From Nitrosospira sp. Nsp14 (GTDB taxonomy: Bacteria > Pseudomonadota > Gammaproteobacteria > Burkholderiales > Nitrosomonadaceae): a stretch of 64,000 nucleotides of DNA. Under the pieces are notes generated by a model. That model did not search any database, was not told the DNA's origin, and saw only the letters and a list, made by a program, of their open reading frames with translations. The stretch is from NCBI RefSeq assembly GCF_900113575.1, contig NZ_FOPV01000003.1, positions 62,001-126,000 of the forward strand. Direction: 5' to 3'. Below are positions 13,837 to 43,577 of the stretch, in pieces; the stretch's first letter is position 1, and every line of letters starts with the position of its first letter. The translations under genes and the position numbers were made by a program.

Positions 13837-13924
13837 TGGTGCGCGACAAGCGTCAAGAACTGATCGTTATGCCGGACGACAGATGGGAAATCGTGGTAAG
13901 TGCCAGCGAAGGCTCGAAATTGAT

Positions 13925-14082
13925 CTACACATAGCGGACAGAGGACTCGGTGTCCTGCGCCATTTCCTGGCATCGGTCAAACGCTTGAATGTGGCGGACT
14001 GAACGGGAAAACCCATTAACTCCACCTTTACCCGGTACGAGGTCTTGCCATTCCCGGAGGTGCGTTTCTCAATGTTTGTCCA
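13925..14082 (-). pseudogene. tyrosine integrase N-terminal relic
   Basis: The minus strand encodes I-E-K-R-T-S-G-N-G-K-T-S-Y-R-V and then T-F-K-R-L-T-D-A-R-K-W. This is the N-terminal arm-DNA-binding domain opening typical of tyrosine recombinases of genomic islands. Near 13960 one base is missing; restoring it continues the family sequence as A-Q-D-T-E-S, after which TAG at 13925-13927 ends it. The catalytic domain is absent. The relic lies at the edge of the reverse transcriptase island, with arm-like repeats about 140 bases upstream of its start. Confidence 0.7.
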
Positions 14083-14143
14083 CTGCTGCCCCGTCAAGAA
14101 GTAGCACAAACACAATACGATAAGGGACAACAAACAGCAACAA

Positions 14144-14186
14144 GGGATATATAGTCTGTTTGGTTATACTTATAACCATATATCCC
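14144..14186. repeat. 43-base nested inverted repeat, AT-rich
   Basis: The outer arms GGGATATAT (14144-14152) and ATATATCCC (14178-14186) are exact complements. The inner arms TGGTTATA (14161-14168) and TATAACCA (14171-14178) form a tight hairpin with a 2-base loop. An asymmetric 8-base bulge separates the two stems. It sits between the integrase relic and the arm-like repeats, where an att or excisionase/recombinase binding region would be expected. Confidence 0.75.
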
Positions 14187-14217
14187 AGATATAGTTTTTA
14201 CTTATCACATGCGTAAA

Positions 14218-14235
14218 TGGCACACGTTTGGCACA
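14218..14235 (-). repeat. paired TGTGCCA repeats, left end of island
   Basis: On the minus strand TGTGCCA occurs twice with an 11-base period (TGTGCCA-AACG-TGTGCCA). The same pair occurs in the opposite orientation at 17866-17883. One helical turn between copies fits side-by-side binding by an integrase arm domain. Confidence 0.75.
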
Positions 14236-14296
14236 TCGCACGTCAATGGGAGCGAAAAAAAAGAGTAGATGACGTTGATTTGATGATGCTGAACAA

Positions 14297-14557
14297 TCAA
14301 CTGGCTTGCTCGATGGTCAACCCGTATGGCCTGTCTGACTTCACCATGAACGCCAGGCTGACGTTGCTGTGATCGAAATGGTGGCTGGTGAGACACATGA
14401 CTGCTTGTCCTACCCTCTTCACGGCACGGTAGGCACCAGGCAAAAGTGGTCCCGCTCCGCAATCAACTCGTCCTGGGGTGGGGTGGCATAAAATTCGGCG
14501 GGGACCGCTACCGAATAATAGTTGTAACGGCATGAATTAAAGCTGGAAATGTTTATT
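14297..14557 (-). other. coding-like fragments, unassigned
   Basis: Downstream of the reverse transcriptase gene, two minus-strand frames look protein-like in succession. One, about 14430-14557, reads ...C-R-Y-N-Y-Y-S-V-A-V-P-A-E-F-Y and D-E-L-I-A-E-R-D-H-F-C-L-V-P. A second (14297-14533) ends S-N-V-S-L-A-F-M-V-K-S-D-R-P-Y-G-L-T. They could be pieces of one gene broken by a frameshift. I recognise no family. It may equally be non-coding. Confidence 0.3.
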
Positions 14558-14559
14558 TA

Positions 14560-14658
14560 TCAGCGTTTGTTACCTGACAAGTCACCCCCTGCCGGGGACC
14601 CGCTGCTCATATCATTCTCTCCGCTTTCGGATTCGATCGCTGTGACCTTAAATCTCAT
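14560..14658 (-). CDS. possible 32-residue peptide following the RT-nitrilase gene
   Basis: A minus-strand ATG lies one base after the TAG of the reverse transcriptase gene, preceded by GAGGG. It opens a 32-codon frame ending in TGA: M-R-F-K-V-T-A-I-E-S-E-S, then a Gly/Ser-rich tail. Stop-start spacing suggests translational coupling. It is soluble and low in complexity. It has no recognised family and might be chance, or the remains of a longer partner gene. Confidence 0.35.
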   Translation of the reverse strand: MRFKVTAIESESGENDMSSGSPAGGDLSGNKR

Positions 14659-14659
14659 G

Positions 14660-17626
14660 CTACCCTCGAGCAGGCAGAACTCTTCTCGAGTGTTCAGAAT
14701 GCAGGTCAAACCCATCTGGGACGGGTTTGAATGGTCCACTGGGTGATCGATGACAAGACTGAAATTGGCGCAATGCCAGAACGTCGATGTCGCCGATCAC
14801 ACAGTAGTCCGTGACGCCACCCTTGACGCGTAACACATCACGTTGCCAGCTATCTTTCGCGGGCGCGCGAATACGGCTGTCGCCGTACTGTCGGTCATTG
14901 CACTGAATGATGTAGGCGTGGATGTCTAACGCAGCGGATTCGACCAAGGCATTGAATGTCTCGGTGTCCTGGTTCCACTCCGGCACGAACAAGGCATCCA
15001 CCTGGCCGCGCAAGGAAGCACGGTAGCTTATATTGGTTAGCTCACTGCATACCAACAGGGCGAAATGAAAATCGCCGTGCCGGATGATTAGCGGCTTATT
15101 CTCTTTCCAAAGTGCGGCCGGTTTCATTTCTAATCCCGCCAGACGCCGCAATTCCTGCTCTTCCGGCAGGGCGGGGCGCTGTTTGTCCTGCCGGTAGATC
15201 ATCATTGAAGGAAAGCCGAGCCCATCGTGCGACAGTGCGGCCCATACCTGATTGCGTACACGGCTTTTACTCCCGTGCAAGTACTCAATACCGGTAATCA
15301 GCGAAATACCACGCCCTTGCAACTTAAGTGCAATGCGCATGAACCAGCGCGCCGGCAAGGCCAGTTCGGGCAGGATGAAGTAGCGTGCTCTCTTGGGCTG
15401 GGAAATCACGCTGTTCACCAACCGGTTCAAACGGGCATATCGGTGGGCATCTGGGTCCGTCGTACGCACGACAGAAGCTACCCAGCTGTTGTATTCGGTT
15501 TTCCAGCTCGACACAGCAATGGCGAACTTCCGTTGTTCTTTGCCATCAGGAATTTGCAGCACGCCCTGCTTGTCGAGATATGGCGTTTTTTCGTCCAGAG
15601 TGAAGCCGCGCAGGGCTAGTACCACCGCTCTTAAGCCGGAATGACTTTTGCTGTCGAATGGATCTTTAGCTAGTACGAACAGTTCCGCCAGATTGAACGG
15701 GCGCGTAGCAAAGAGGAGTCCTTGGGGCAAGCCTCTGACGACTTTGATCCACCCAGTGAGCGTAGTAATACCATCGATAATTTCAGGACTCAGCAGCGAC
15801 GCGGCGTCACTGAGTATAGTAATTTTCTTTTTCGTTGGAATGCCACGTTGGGCGACCATTTCTTTGGGAAGACCGATAAAGCGGAATGGTTGGTGGCCCA
15901 GGTCGAACGAGAACAGCTCTGCTTGCTTAGCCTGAATCTCCTTTTCGGAGAGTCCCTTAGTTTCAAGAACGGATTTGTGTGTTTGCCACGCTACTCGGCC
16001 GGCTTTTGAGAGGCGCGGTGGAAAGGCAGCGATGATGTTTTCTTGAATAGTGTTAAGCAGCTGATCTTGCCACCGGTTTAGGATTTCCACTTGATTCGGG
16101 ACCGTACTCTCGGGCAAAGCCTTAATCGTGAGGTTACAGTTTTGTTCGAGCCTCTTGTAAATTGCCTTCAGCTGCTCGATGATCTCGCACAACGAATCAA
16201 AGTCTTCACAAGCTATGGCCAGTTTCACTACGCGCGGCAAGTAAATGGCCAGTTCGAAGAAATGTGGCAAAACCAACACATGCTGACAGAAGGCACGGAA
16301 AAATGCCTGACGGTGGTTCTTCCATGTTTCCGGTAATAGGTCACGCTCATAGGCTTCGAAATCGCGGAGCTTGATGGAAAAGCCAGCACGGCGCATGGTT
16401 AGGGCGCTGGTCTTGCGCAGGTTGTCGGCCACCTCCCCATCATGTTGCGTGGCGGCGATGAGGTCAGTTGCAACATGGCTCGCAGACATCGGCAAATTGG
16501 GTAACGCTCGCCATTCGCTAGCTCGTTCCTGAATCTGGTGGGCGATAGCGTCCACTAGGGTTTGCCCAGTTTCTCCTTCCAGCAGGAAAACTTTATTTTT
16601 CTTATTGGCGAAATAAATCTTGCTGTTGCTCAGGTAATCTGGCTTAAACTGAATTTCTTCCTGCTTACTTTCGGGTATCCAGTCTAGCTTGCCGCCAGAG
16701 CGATCAAGTAGCCACTGCCACAATGCTGCGGGCGACCGAGATTTTGCCCCGTTTTCCATCACCAACAAAATGTCGTCCATGTAACGGCCGTAATACAGCG
16801 GGGCAACTTGCTGCTCGATTAGTTGGTCAAGTTCAAACAGCGCCACGTTAGCGACAACGGCAGAAGCCGGCAGGCCAACAGGTAAGCCTTTTTCCAGAGG
16901 TGTTCGCTTCGCCCATTCTTTAAGTGCTGCAATAAAGAGACGATTGAGCTTCTCTTCCTCTGGTTTTAGCTCTAATTCAAGCAATTGCTTGAATTTTTCA
17001 TTGAGCATAAAACTCGGATTGAGCTCATGATAAAAACTGCTGACGTCTGCAGTGAGAGAGATAACCTTTTTCTTTGCTGCCAGCGCGGTTCGCATGGCGT
17101 CGATGCCGCCGTCTCGCCACTCACGAAAAGGTTTTAGATAAGGTTTGAATGACCCCAACGACAATAGATTGATTTCTCCTTTCTTTCCACGACGTAATCG
17201 GCTTCCGTAAGCGCAGTCGTGGAGCTTTTTGTCATATTGGTGCCCTACCTTGATGATCCAAAGAGTGGATAGAACATGAAACGCAAGGCTGCACTGAGCC
17301 ATCAGGCGGAATTCGGCTGTGTGTTTTCCCCCCTCGCAACGATGTTCCCATTCCTCTGCTGGCGATGAAAAGATCAACCCATCGGGCGCCTTATTCTTCT
17401 CCGATAGCGATATGGCTTTGGGTGCCAAGGTCCAGTCGCCAAGAAAAAGAGGATCTTCGATCCACTCTTCGTCAGCACCGTTGAGTTTGTCGAGCAAGGC
17501 TTGGAGATTATTTGTAAGCTCGCTTTCGTACTCAGCAATAGCCAGCAACGAGGCATGGGACGAGTAATACAAATCCACTTTTGCCTTGCGATAGGCTAGC
17601 CCTAGGTCTTTGAGGGTGAAACTCAT
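14660..17626 (-). CDS. defence-type reverse transcriptase fused to a nitrilase domain (DRT class, UG1/UG5-like)
   Basis: A 988-residue fusion. The N-terminal half is a reverse transcriptase: motif A-like T-A-D-V-S-S-F-Y (Asp194), the G-L-P-V-G-L-P-A-S-A-V-V-A-N block (247-260) and the catalytic Y-M-D-D (282-285). The C-terminal third (about 735-960) is a carbon-nitrogen hydrolase: P-E-L (Glu754), D-K-Q-R-P (Lys815) and V-C-S-E-L (Cys860) form a complete nitrilase triad. RT-nitrilase fusions are the hallmark of one class of defence-associated reverse transcriptases (UG1 and relatives) that protect against phage. Both active sites look intact, so the protein is probably functional. It sits alone in a small island beside a tRNA gene. 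The ATG at 17626 has only a weak ribosome-binding site. The exact DRT subtype and the nitrilase substrate cannot be told from sequence. Confidence 0.88.
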   Translation of the reverse strand: MSFTLKDLGLAYRKAKVDLYYSSHASLLAIAEYESELTNNLQALLDKLNGADEEWIEDPLFLGDWTLAPKAISLSEKNKAPDGLIFSSPAEEWEHRCEGGKHTAEFRLMAQCSLAFHVLSTLWIIKVGHQYDKKLHDCAYGSRLRRGKKGEINLLSLGSFKPYLKPFREWRDGGIDAMRTALAAKKKVISLTADVSSFYHELNPSFMLNEKFKQLLELELKPEEEKLNRLFIAALKEWAKRTPLEKGLPVGLPASAVVANVALFELDQLIEQQVAPLYYGRYMDDILLVMENGAKSRSPAALWQWLLDRSGGKLDWIPESKQEEIQFKPDYLSNSKIYFANKKNKVFLLEGETGQTLVDAIAHQIQERASEWRALPNLPMSASHVATDLIAATQHDGEVADNLRKTSALTMRRAGFSIKLRDFEAYERDLLPETWKNHRQAFFRAFCQHVLVLPHFFELAIYLPRVVKLAIACEDFDSLCEIIEQLKAIYKRLEQNCNLTIKALPESTVPNQVEILNRWQDQLLNTIQENIIAAFPPRLSKAGRVAWQTHKSVLETKGLSEKEIQAKQAELFSFDLGHQPFRFIGLPKEMVAQRGIPTKKKITILSDAASLLSPEIIDGITTLTGWIKVVRGLPQGLLFATRPFNLAELFVLAKDPFDSKSHSGLRAVVLALRGFTLDEKTPYLDKQGVLQIPDGKEQRKFAIAVSSWKTEYNSWVASVVRTTDPDAHRYARLNRLVNSVISQPKRARYFILPELALPARWFMRIALKLQGRGISLITGIEYLHGSKSRVRNQVWAALSHDGLGFPSMMIYRQDKQRPALPEEQELRRLAGLEMKPAALWKENKPLIIRHGDFHFALLVCSELTNISYRASLRGQVDALFVPEWNQDTETFNALVESAALDIHAYIIQCNDRQYGDSRIRAPAKDSWQRDVLRVKGGVTDYCVIGDIDVLALRQFQSCHRSPSGPFKPVPDGFDLHSEHSRRVLPARG

Positions 17627-17865
17627 TGAATGGCCTGCTTGACGGGGAAGCTTACGATTTTATGGAAATCAACAATATTTGCTACTGTACAGAGGTACAC
17701 CAGAAAATGAGTGTGGCTATTCCGGATTTTGGAGGAAGGAAGATCGCTCGGGCGAGCTGATGCTAAAGGCTGAGTAACGCGTAAGACGGACGTGGAAATC
17801 GCTGTGCCCAATGCCATCTTGACTCGCGGCAACAGGTCAAAGCCTAGGAGACTTTTTCTCAACAG

Positions 17866-17883
17866 TGTGCCAAAAATGTGCCA
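17866..17883 (+). repeat. paired TGTGCCA repeats, right end of island
   Basis: TGTGCCA-AAAA-TGTGCCA with an 11-base period lies 49 bases from the 3-prime end of the tRNA gene. It mirrors the pair at 14218-14235. Its position fits an integrase arm site beside a tRNA attachment site. Confidence 0.75.
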
Positions 17884-17889
17884 CAGCCC

Positions 17890-17922
17890 CACAAATAAAA
17901 CGGCCTTCATCGCTGAAGGCCG
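17890..17922 (-). terminator. intrinsic terminator of the tRNA transcript
   Basis: A perfect 9-base stem (CGGCCTTCA / TGAAGGCCG) with a 4-base loop is followed on the minus strand by TTTTATTTGT. It begins 10 bases after the tRNA CCA end. Confidence 0.85.
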
Positions 17923-17931
17923 CATATTTAT

Positions 17932-18008
<77 letters not shown>

Positions 18009-18029
18009 TGCCGACAATAACTGGGAAGC

Positions 18030-42383: not shown

Positions 42384-43577
<1,194 letters not shown>

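Follow-up and report, generated by a model that had tools for sequence, protein, structure and literature searches.

Two described defence systems stand closest to the gene reported here, a UG5-type reverse transcriptase (RT)-nitrilase fusion in a 64,000-nucleotide stretch of Nitrosospira sp. Nsp14 (NZ_FOPV01000003.1, 62,001-126,000, forward strand; hereafter the window, to whose positions our coordinates refer). The UG5 RT-nitrilase of P4-like satellites, combined with a one-transmembrane (1TM) gene, is among the validated phage-defence systems (PMC9122126), and DRT1 builds untemplated DNA on its own residue S402, with the adducts driving assembly into tetramers and filaments (Neville et al., PMC13275509). 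In DRT1, a neighbour's nitrilase site is covered by a domain-swapped lid made up of residues 1211-1229, the substitutions K1219A and A1223F abolish defence, and defence also requires D324/D325 and the nitrilase residue C1116 (PMC13275509). An earlier note on this stretch had called RT-nitrilase fusions established phage-defence proteins whose nitrilase has an unsettled role. The first statement agrees with the defence reported for the UG5 system (PMC9122126) and for DRT1 (PMC13275509). The second has been partly overtaken in the sister family DRT1, where the nitrilase is essential and is held lid-closed in filaments that depend on the DNA adduct, while its substrate is still described as unknown (PMC13275509).

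The window gene occupies 14660-17626 on the minus strand and reads from an ATG start through 988 amino acids without an internal stop (residue numbers below are those of the window protein unless 9YFD or DRT1 is named). We regard it as probably a stand-alone UG5-nitrilase phage-defence gene, most likely DRT1-like in mechanism. Its family is already known, and the gene represents no new kind of system; what is new is the alignment of its C-terminal tail with the DRT1 lid, a serine spacing shared with five DRT1 proteins, and the placement of relatives in BREX loci and split pglX genes.

The family assignment draws on PADLOC (PDLC03780), Pfam (RVT_1), a structure model and a 73-row alignment. The PADLOC model RT_UG5-nitrilase matches residues 2-986 with 1047.9 bits (E = 0), followed at a very wide margin by another UG5-nitrilase model (153.9 bits), RTasNitrilase (140.0), RT_UG5_small (97.1) and Drt1a (69.4). 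Of the best 25 of 69 families, RT_I-B, RT_II-A and RT_I-A, judged from their names to be retron RTs, reach 29.8-31.6 bits. By these profiles, the window protein is a full-length UG5-nitrilase. The earlier note had proposed such a search against DRT profiles and had named retrons and group II introns as the competing placement; the profiles do not bear that placement out, and the solved structure closest in sequence is that of DRT1 (9YFD, E = 5.4e-25 with a 69-row profile), ahead of retron and other RTs. A retron or noncoding-RNA-templated DRT was rejected: Rfam gives no match near the gene at the gathering threshold, including no msr/msd RNA beside the RT, and the window flanks match those of 0 of 72 relatives at E 1e-4, some of which share flanks with each other. 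A group II intron was likewise rejected, with no maturase domain in Pfam and no intron RNA in Rfam at the gathering threshold. Foldseek against the PDB (copy to 2026-04-08; the DRT1 paper is from June 2026) did not place 9YFD among the best 50 of 651 matches, and our comparison with DRT1 is therefore a sequence comparison.

Catalytic residues, tail and candidate priming serine

Conservation was assessed among relatives sampled as the best 80 of at least 429 (L numbers denote loci and G numbers the genomes compared). An open reading frame (ORF) of more than 850 amino acids is present at 76 of the 85 loci inspected, the other nine (L005, L017, L033, L062, L068, L069, L079, L081 and L082) being broken, truncated or split. 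The 73-row alignment also leaves out L001 (the window), L004 (a near copy of L002), L056 and L067 (contig end), and the 69-row alignment additionally L002, L003, L057 and L063.

With limits read from the model, the protein comprises an RT domain (approximately 100-330), a helical domain (approximately 408-585), a nitrilase (approximately 690-956) and a conserved C-terminal tail (957-988). The RT motif is YMDD (Y282-M283-D284-D285); valine stands at position 283 in 71 of the 73 aligned proteins, making YVDD the usual form, and the catalytic aspartates D284 and D285 are each kept in 73/73. All 73 likewise carry the nitrilase catalytic residues E754, K815, E822 and C860. These counts and the unbroken frame uphold the earlier description of one 988-residue protein with an intact RT site and a complete Glu-Lys-Cys nitrilase triad. 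In Pfam, RVT_1 at 181-292 (E = 2e-11) is the only match above cut-off, with one sub-threshold DUF match besides and no match to a nitrilase model; the nitrilase domain is assigned because of the PADLOC profile matches and the predicted fold.

The AlphaFold2 model built from the 69-row alignment has a mean pLDDT of 91.6 and a pTM of 0.92. In Foldseek it matches nitrilase-superfamily amidases and several RT-type polymerases, namely UG15/DRT4, AbiP2, AbiA, AbiK, DRT6 and DRT9. Since G2L4 (a group II intron-like RT) and diversity-generating retroelement (DGR) RTs also match, the RT cannot be assigned to a group from the fold search by itself. PHROGs matches fall on both the RT part and the nitrilase part (best 3.9e-18); on viral contigs, 10 stretches fit a pattern and none is a relative. 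Comparison with L006, the nearest relative among the listed matches (73% identity), gives a nonsynonymous rate (dN) of 0.19 and a synonymous rate (dS) of 2.7, with differences of 0.20, 0.14 and 0.54 by codon position, thus mostly at the third. By this estimate, which is rough because dS is saturated, the gene is under purifying selection.

In the 9YFD profile alignment, C860 falls opposite DRT1 C1116, the RYVDD motifs coincide, and the UG5 tail F-K967-P-x-P970-x-G972-F aligns with DRT1 K1219-T-Q-P-A-G-F1225. Within the tail, K967, P970 and R981 are found in 73/73 rows, P968 in 72 and G972 in 71. An hhalign comparison with five DRT1 proteins also pairs PxGF with PAGF, leaving the lysine unpaired. 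From these alignments, a C-terminal lid looks to be shared between UG5 and DRT1.

A second correspondence concerns S370, the one hydroxyl residue in the stretch 286-461 that is invariant (73/73). Every UG5 row has it exactly 27 positions C-terminal of the invariant K343, with a hydrophobic residue at +22 in 73/73. In all five DRT1 proteins fetched, a serine likewise stands 27 residues after the lysine of a matching K(T/S)E, with I or V at +22, and in four of the five this is the S of LSGP. The offsets +16 and +39 are also S or T in all five, so +27 is not unique. Because it is invariant and spaced as in the five DRT1 proteins, S370 is the foremost candidate for the residue that primes DNA in UG5, a role to which we would give slightly less than an even chance. 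The TSR motif was considered as the DRT1 priming serine and rejected, since 9YFD has TNR there, with T401-S402-S403 further on; among the five DRT1 proteins, one carries TAR at that position. DRT5S and DRT5L are, from their names, presumably the small and large UG5 proteins. The two, once purified, make covalent DNA without a template (PMC13275509).

We hypothesize a mechanism that builds on catalytic residues that are intact, an invariant tail that aligns with the DRT1 lid, an invariant serine spaced as in the five DRT1 proteins, carriage as mobile cargo, and no detected partner gene or flanking RNA, each of them read from sequence. The RT domain would extend one of the protein's own hydroxyls, most plausibly that of S370, with a short stretch of untemplated DNA, and the DNA-bearing protein would then oligomerise and so assemble the nitrilase. 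The oligomer would keep the nitrilase shut by placing the conserved C-terminal tail over the neighbour's active site. Phage infection would free the tail, and the freed nitrilase would attack an essential small molecule or make a toxic one and would thereby halt the cell along with the phage. The protein priming, the oligomerisation, the trigger, the substrate and the abortive outcome are steps that we infer.

Several observations weigh against this reading. The K967/K1219 pairing comes from one alignment, and hhalign omits that lysine. The corresponding lysine of 9YFD is K373, which puts S402 at +29 (G400-T401-S402-S403), not +27; phmmer sets 9YFD G400 opposite the serine of L134, whereas hhalign pairs the DRT1 serine with UG5 E350 and not with S370. 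S402 is reported not to be conserved in other class 3 DRTs (PMC13275509). S370 also lies within a predicted helix (351-373) and has other conserved residues close by (E371, R373 and P376), and it may therefore be kept for structural reasons. A scan of the coding strand from 14000 to 18020 gave no sigma-70-like promoter. Finally, the UG5 system tested with phage carried a transmembrane (1TM) partner (PMC9122126), which was not found in the window.

Partner genes, BREX loci and distribution

An alternative built on that last point takes the RT-nitrilase as one half of a system that needs a small transmembrane effector, the partner having been lost and the window gene left an orphan. It agrees with the joint testing of the RT-nitrilase and the 1TM gene (PMC9122126) and with the relatives at L058 and L038, where a protein with a hydrophobic segment (165 and 215 amino acids, respectively; no Pfam match) lies directly downstream. 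Beside the window gene, however, no adjacent 1TM gene was seen, only a 36-amino-acid hydrophobic frame in the integrase-relic region. Counting that frame, small hydrophobic ORFs stand beside the gene at 8/73 loci in the sense orientation compared to 11/73 in the antisense control; a 1TM partner was rejected as the sense-strand signal does not exceed the control. DRT1, moreover, defends without drt1b (PMC13275509), and the codon-position pattern and dN/dS fit a gene under selection. We therefore consider an orphaned half-system unlikely.

At five relatives (L010, L019, L021, L022 and L032) the gene shares 1-4 nucleotides with the neighbour on either side, which leaves no room for a dedicated flanking RNA there, and at the gathering threshold Rfam returns only the tRNA and anti-hemB over the whole window. 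These comparisons suggest that the window gene likely acts autonomously. The earlier proposal of a single gene working with host factors is supported, no partner having been found, with the amendment that the family is not solitary everywhere: some relatives lie in BREX operons, and the tested UG5 system had a 1TM partner.

BREX homologues occur at 13 of 76 UG5 loci (L001 and L004 being counted among the 76), 12 of them with PglZ; this is a lower bound because many contigs are short. At nine loci (L007, L010, L012, L019, L022, L026, L030, L031 and L032), the RT-nitrilase lies between an upstream pglX half of approximately 600 amino acids and a downstream half of approximately 590. The two halves at L010 correspond to positions 1-621 and 621-1173 of a single PglX model 1174 positions long, and the split was called in the other eight by similarity to L010. 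Further cargo sometimes occupies the same pglX gap, such as a Shedu-type SduA at L010 or a TIR-like protein at L026. At L035 pglX is whole and the RT-nitrilase gene follows pglZ. Interrupted pglX genes are known (PMC9716671); the literature searched, whose coverage excluded most subscription papers, contained no report joining BREX genes with a UG5 RT-nitrilase. On a FastTree tree of UG5 proteins only, with long branches flagged, all 13 BREX loci group with the window gene in one clade of 37 rows, and the label for BREX switches 8 times.

These loci, together with a cluster of neighbours at 11 loci that includes proteins read as type I specificity subunits, could also be taken to mean that the RT-nitrilase belongs as a module to BREX or to type I restriction loci, and that the window copy is a displaced accessory acting with host restriction systems. 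The genome of the window itself has no PglZ (0/1), so there is no BREX embedding; L006, the nearest listed relative, is not in BREX; and the eight label changes fit repeated insertion of an autonomous gene. We consider this alternative quite improbable, and return to a stand-alone gene as the preferred reading.

A wider generalization, which we put forward tentatively and think somewhat more apt to fail than to hold, is that UG5 RT-nitrilases are single-gene suicide switches with both DRT1 controls (the lid K967-P-x-P-x-G-F and the priming serine S370), with an adduct-locked lid common to RT-nitrilases. They would have been inserted repeatedly as cargo in other defences, notably in the split pglX of BREX, as a possible second line if BREX is breached. 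If functional, the BREX placement would combine an abortive-infection enzyme and a restriction-like system in one operon. The general questions raised are whether the DRT1 lid mechanism holds for all RT-nitrilases and which residue primes UG5 DNA.

Within the genus, 1 of 22 other genomes (G006) has a homologue, 35% identical and with one internal TAG, at a different site between genes read as ssb and an HhH protein; for this reason we read the RT-nitrilase as mobile cargo. At the family level, 9 of 125 genomes have a match. The gene is accessory, not core, and the presence/absence comparison suggested in the earlier note thus disposes of the core-gene alternative. The homologues in G006 (L005/L148) and in G344 (L141) contain one internal stop each, due to decay or sequencing error. 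E. coli carries a 1069-amino-acid UG5-nitrilase (L140) that is 31% identical to the window protein; of 5426 complete E. coli genomes, 253 match its gene at 99% identity or more, 252 of them across 80% or more of its length, and AbiE genes, an integrase fragment and tRNA-Thr lie in its neighbourhood.

The tRNA-Met island and its integrase relic

The RT-nitrilase gene is bounded by a tRNA-Met and an integrase relic, as the earlier note had described. The tRNA-Met (cat; ARAGORN and Rfam) lies at 17932-18008 on the minus strand; its 3' end faces the RT gene, 305 bases upstream of the RT-nitrilase start, and forms both the island boundary and an attachment site used in the genus. The relic, a truncated and frame-broken N-terminal part of a tyrosine integrase (13870-14133, minus strand), is readable from approximately 14100 down to approximately 13900. 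DNA alignment and 87% identity over 39 amino acids, beyond which the frame breaks, link it to an integrase of sister genome G013, a 359-amino-acid tyrosine integrase (Pfam Phage_integrase, 1e-36). The left island edge falls at 13882-13916 (no strand assigned), the point where the antiporter flank ceases to be homologous to other genomes (13882 for G012 and G013, 13916 for G016). GC content is 50.8% for 13925-17931 compared to 54.5% for the window.

Two unstranded 18-nucleotide segments, at 14218-14235 near the integrase and 17866-17883 near the tRNA, form an inverted repeat (I3, 89% over 18 nucleotides). The former resembles sequence upstream of sister integrases in the DNA alignment, and the pair may be arm-type sites of the integrase or a chance match. 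A terminator-like hairpin directly follows the tRNA (17900-17923, minus strand; pattern match only), and the RT gene therefore probably has its own promoter. The rest of the island is nearly empty, in agreement with the earlier note: the intervals 17627-17931 and approximately 14134-14659 hold no ORF with an above-cut-off family match and no Rfam match. Two ORFs, one at 17623-17958 that overlaps the tRNA and one at 14205-14462, have weak sub-threshold matches only and were not accepted as genes.

Across the genus, a tRNA/rpoD query gave a near-complete match in 22 of 23 genomes and matched only the tRNA part in G004. This tRNA-Met is a busy integration site, with downstream content that varies by genome (sister loci L086-L107 and L117-L128). 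When 1400 bases after the tRNA (1274 in one) were compared in 22 genomes, the window shared just 66 bases, with G005 (E 1e-5), and only the pair G018/G021 shared more than 220. Extra tRNA-end copies of 46-48 bp, 96-100% identical, lie on the same contig 7-58 kb away in G001, G003, G005, G006, G013, G018 and G021; in the window, no second attachment copy was found besides that of the tRNA (at most 3 mismatches in 17 nucleotides).

G013 shows a complete layout: the tRNA, a 334-amino-acid cargo gene, the 359-amino-acid integrase, other genes, one of which encodes a DUF3987/Toprim protein, and, approximately 13.2 kb away, another copy of the tRNA end. The cargo in the RT-nitrilase slot (L117) matches a TIR-like defence effector model (2e-12). 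Compared with this layout, the window island is the G013 plan with its far end lost, and the relic and tRNA mark it as a real tRNA-linked island of the integrase family that uses this tRNA. Ten large proteins from seven sister genomes were family-searched near the tRNA, some several kilobases away. PADLOC matches 2 of the 10, the second being a weak RTasDnaG-like match to the Toprim protein (9.6e-07); a gene beside the tRNA in G011 has STAND NTPase matches below cut-off. The remaining proteins resemble efflux, phage tail, kinase, TPR or integrase genes, so the site is not restricted to defence genes.

The decayed element, the broken integrase, the lack of a second attachment copy in the window and the stops in the G006 and G344 homologues could suggest that the window gene survives as an inactive or domesticated remnant and has no function in defence, but with the frame intact, every invariant catalytic and tail residue present and the differences from L006 mostly at third codon positions, this is highly unlikely. 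Elsewhere in the window, Rfam identifies an anti-hemB small RNA (Burkholderia RNA 7) at 43485-43575 with 80 bits.

Comparison with described systems

Among described polymerases, AbiA, AbiK, AbiP2, DRT4/UG15, DRT6 and DRT9 resemble the window protein in that the Foldseek matches extend over approximately 500-710 columns, longer than a lone RT domain; they differ in their low TM-scores, 0.18-0.30 of the query. These polymerases are not known to carry a nitrilase. Systems that pair a UG5-small RT with a separate RT-associated nitrilase come nearer: RT_UG5_small (97 bits) and RTasNitrilase (140 bits) match the two halves of the window protein, which instead has both as one polypeptide. A two-ORF form is present at L082 8001-10966, where an RT part of 534 amino acids and a nitrilase part of 454 amino acids are encoded in frames that overlap by 4 nucleotides.

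The UG5-nitrilase and 1TM system, which was assayed at room temperature, belongs to the same family, has an RT with a C-terminal nitrilase, and is cargo of an integrase-bearing element (PMC9122126). The window locus differs from it in that no 1TM partner was seen, the neighbour is tRNA-Met, the element is decayed and the RT motif is YMDD. DRT1 (UG1, class 3; 9YFD) belongs to a different RT group, with 69.4 bits for the Drt1a model compared to 1047.9 for UG5-nitrilase, and the window protein is 241 residues shorter than 9YFD. The two nevertheless share the order of RT, helical repeats and nitrilase within a single gene, and their catalytic residues and lid motif align.

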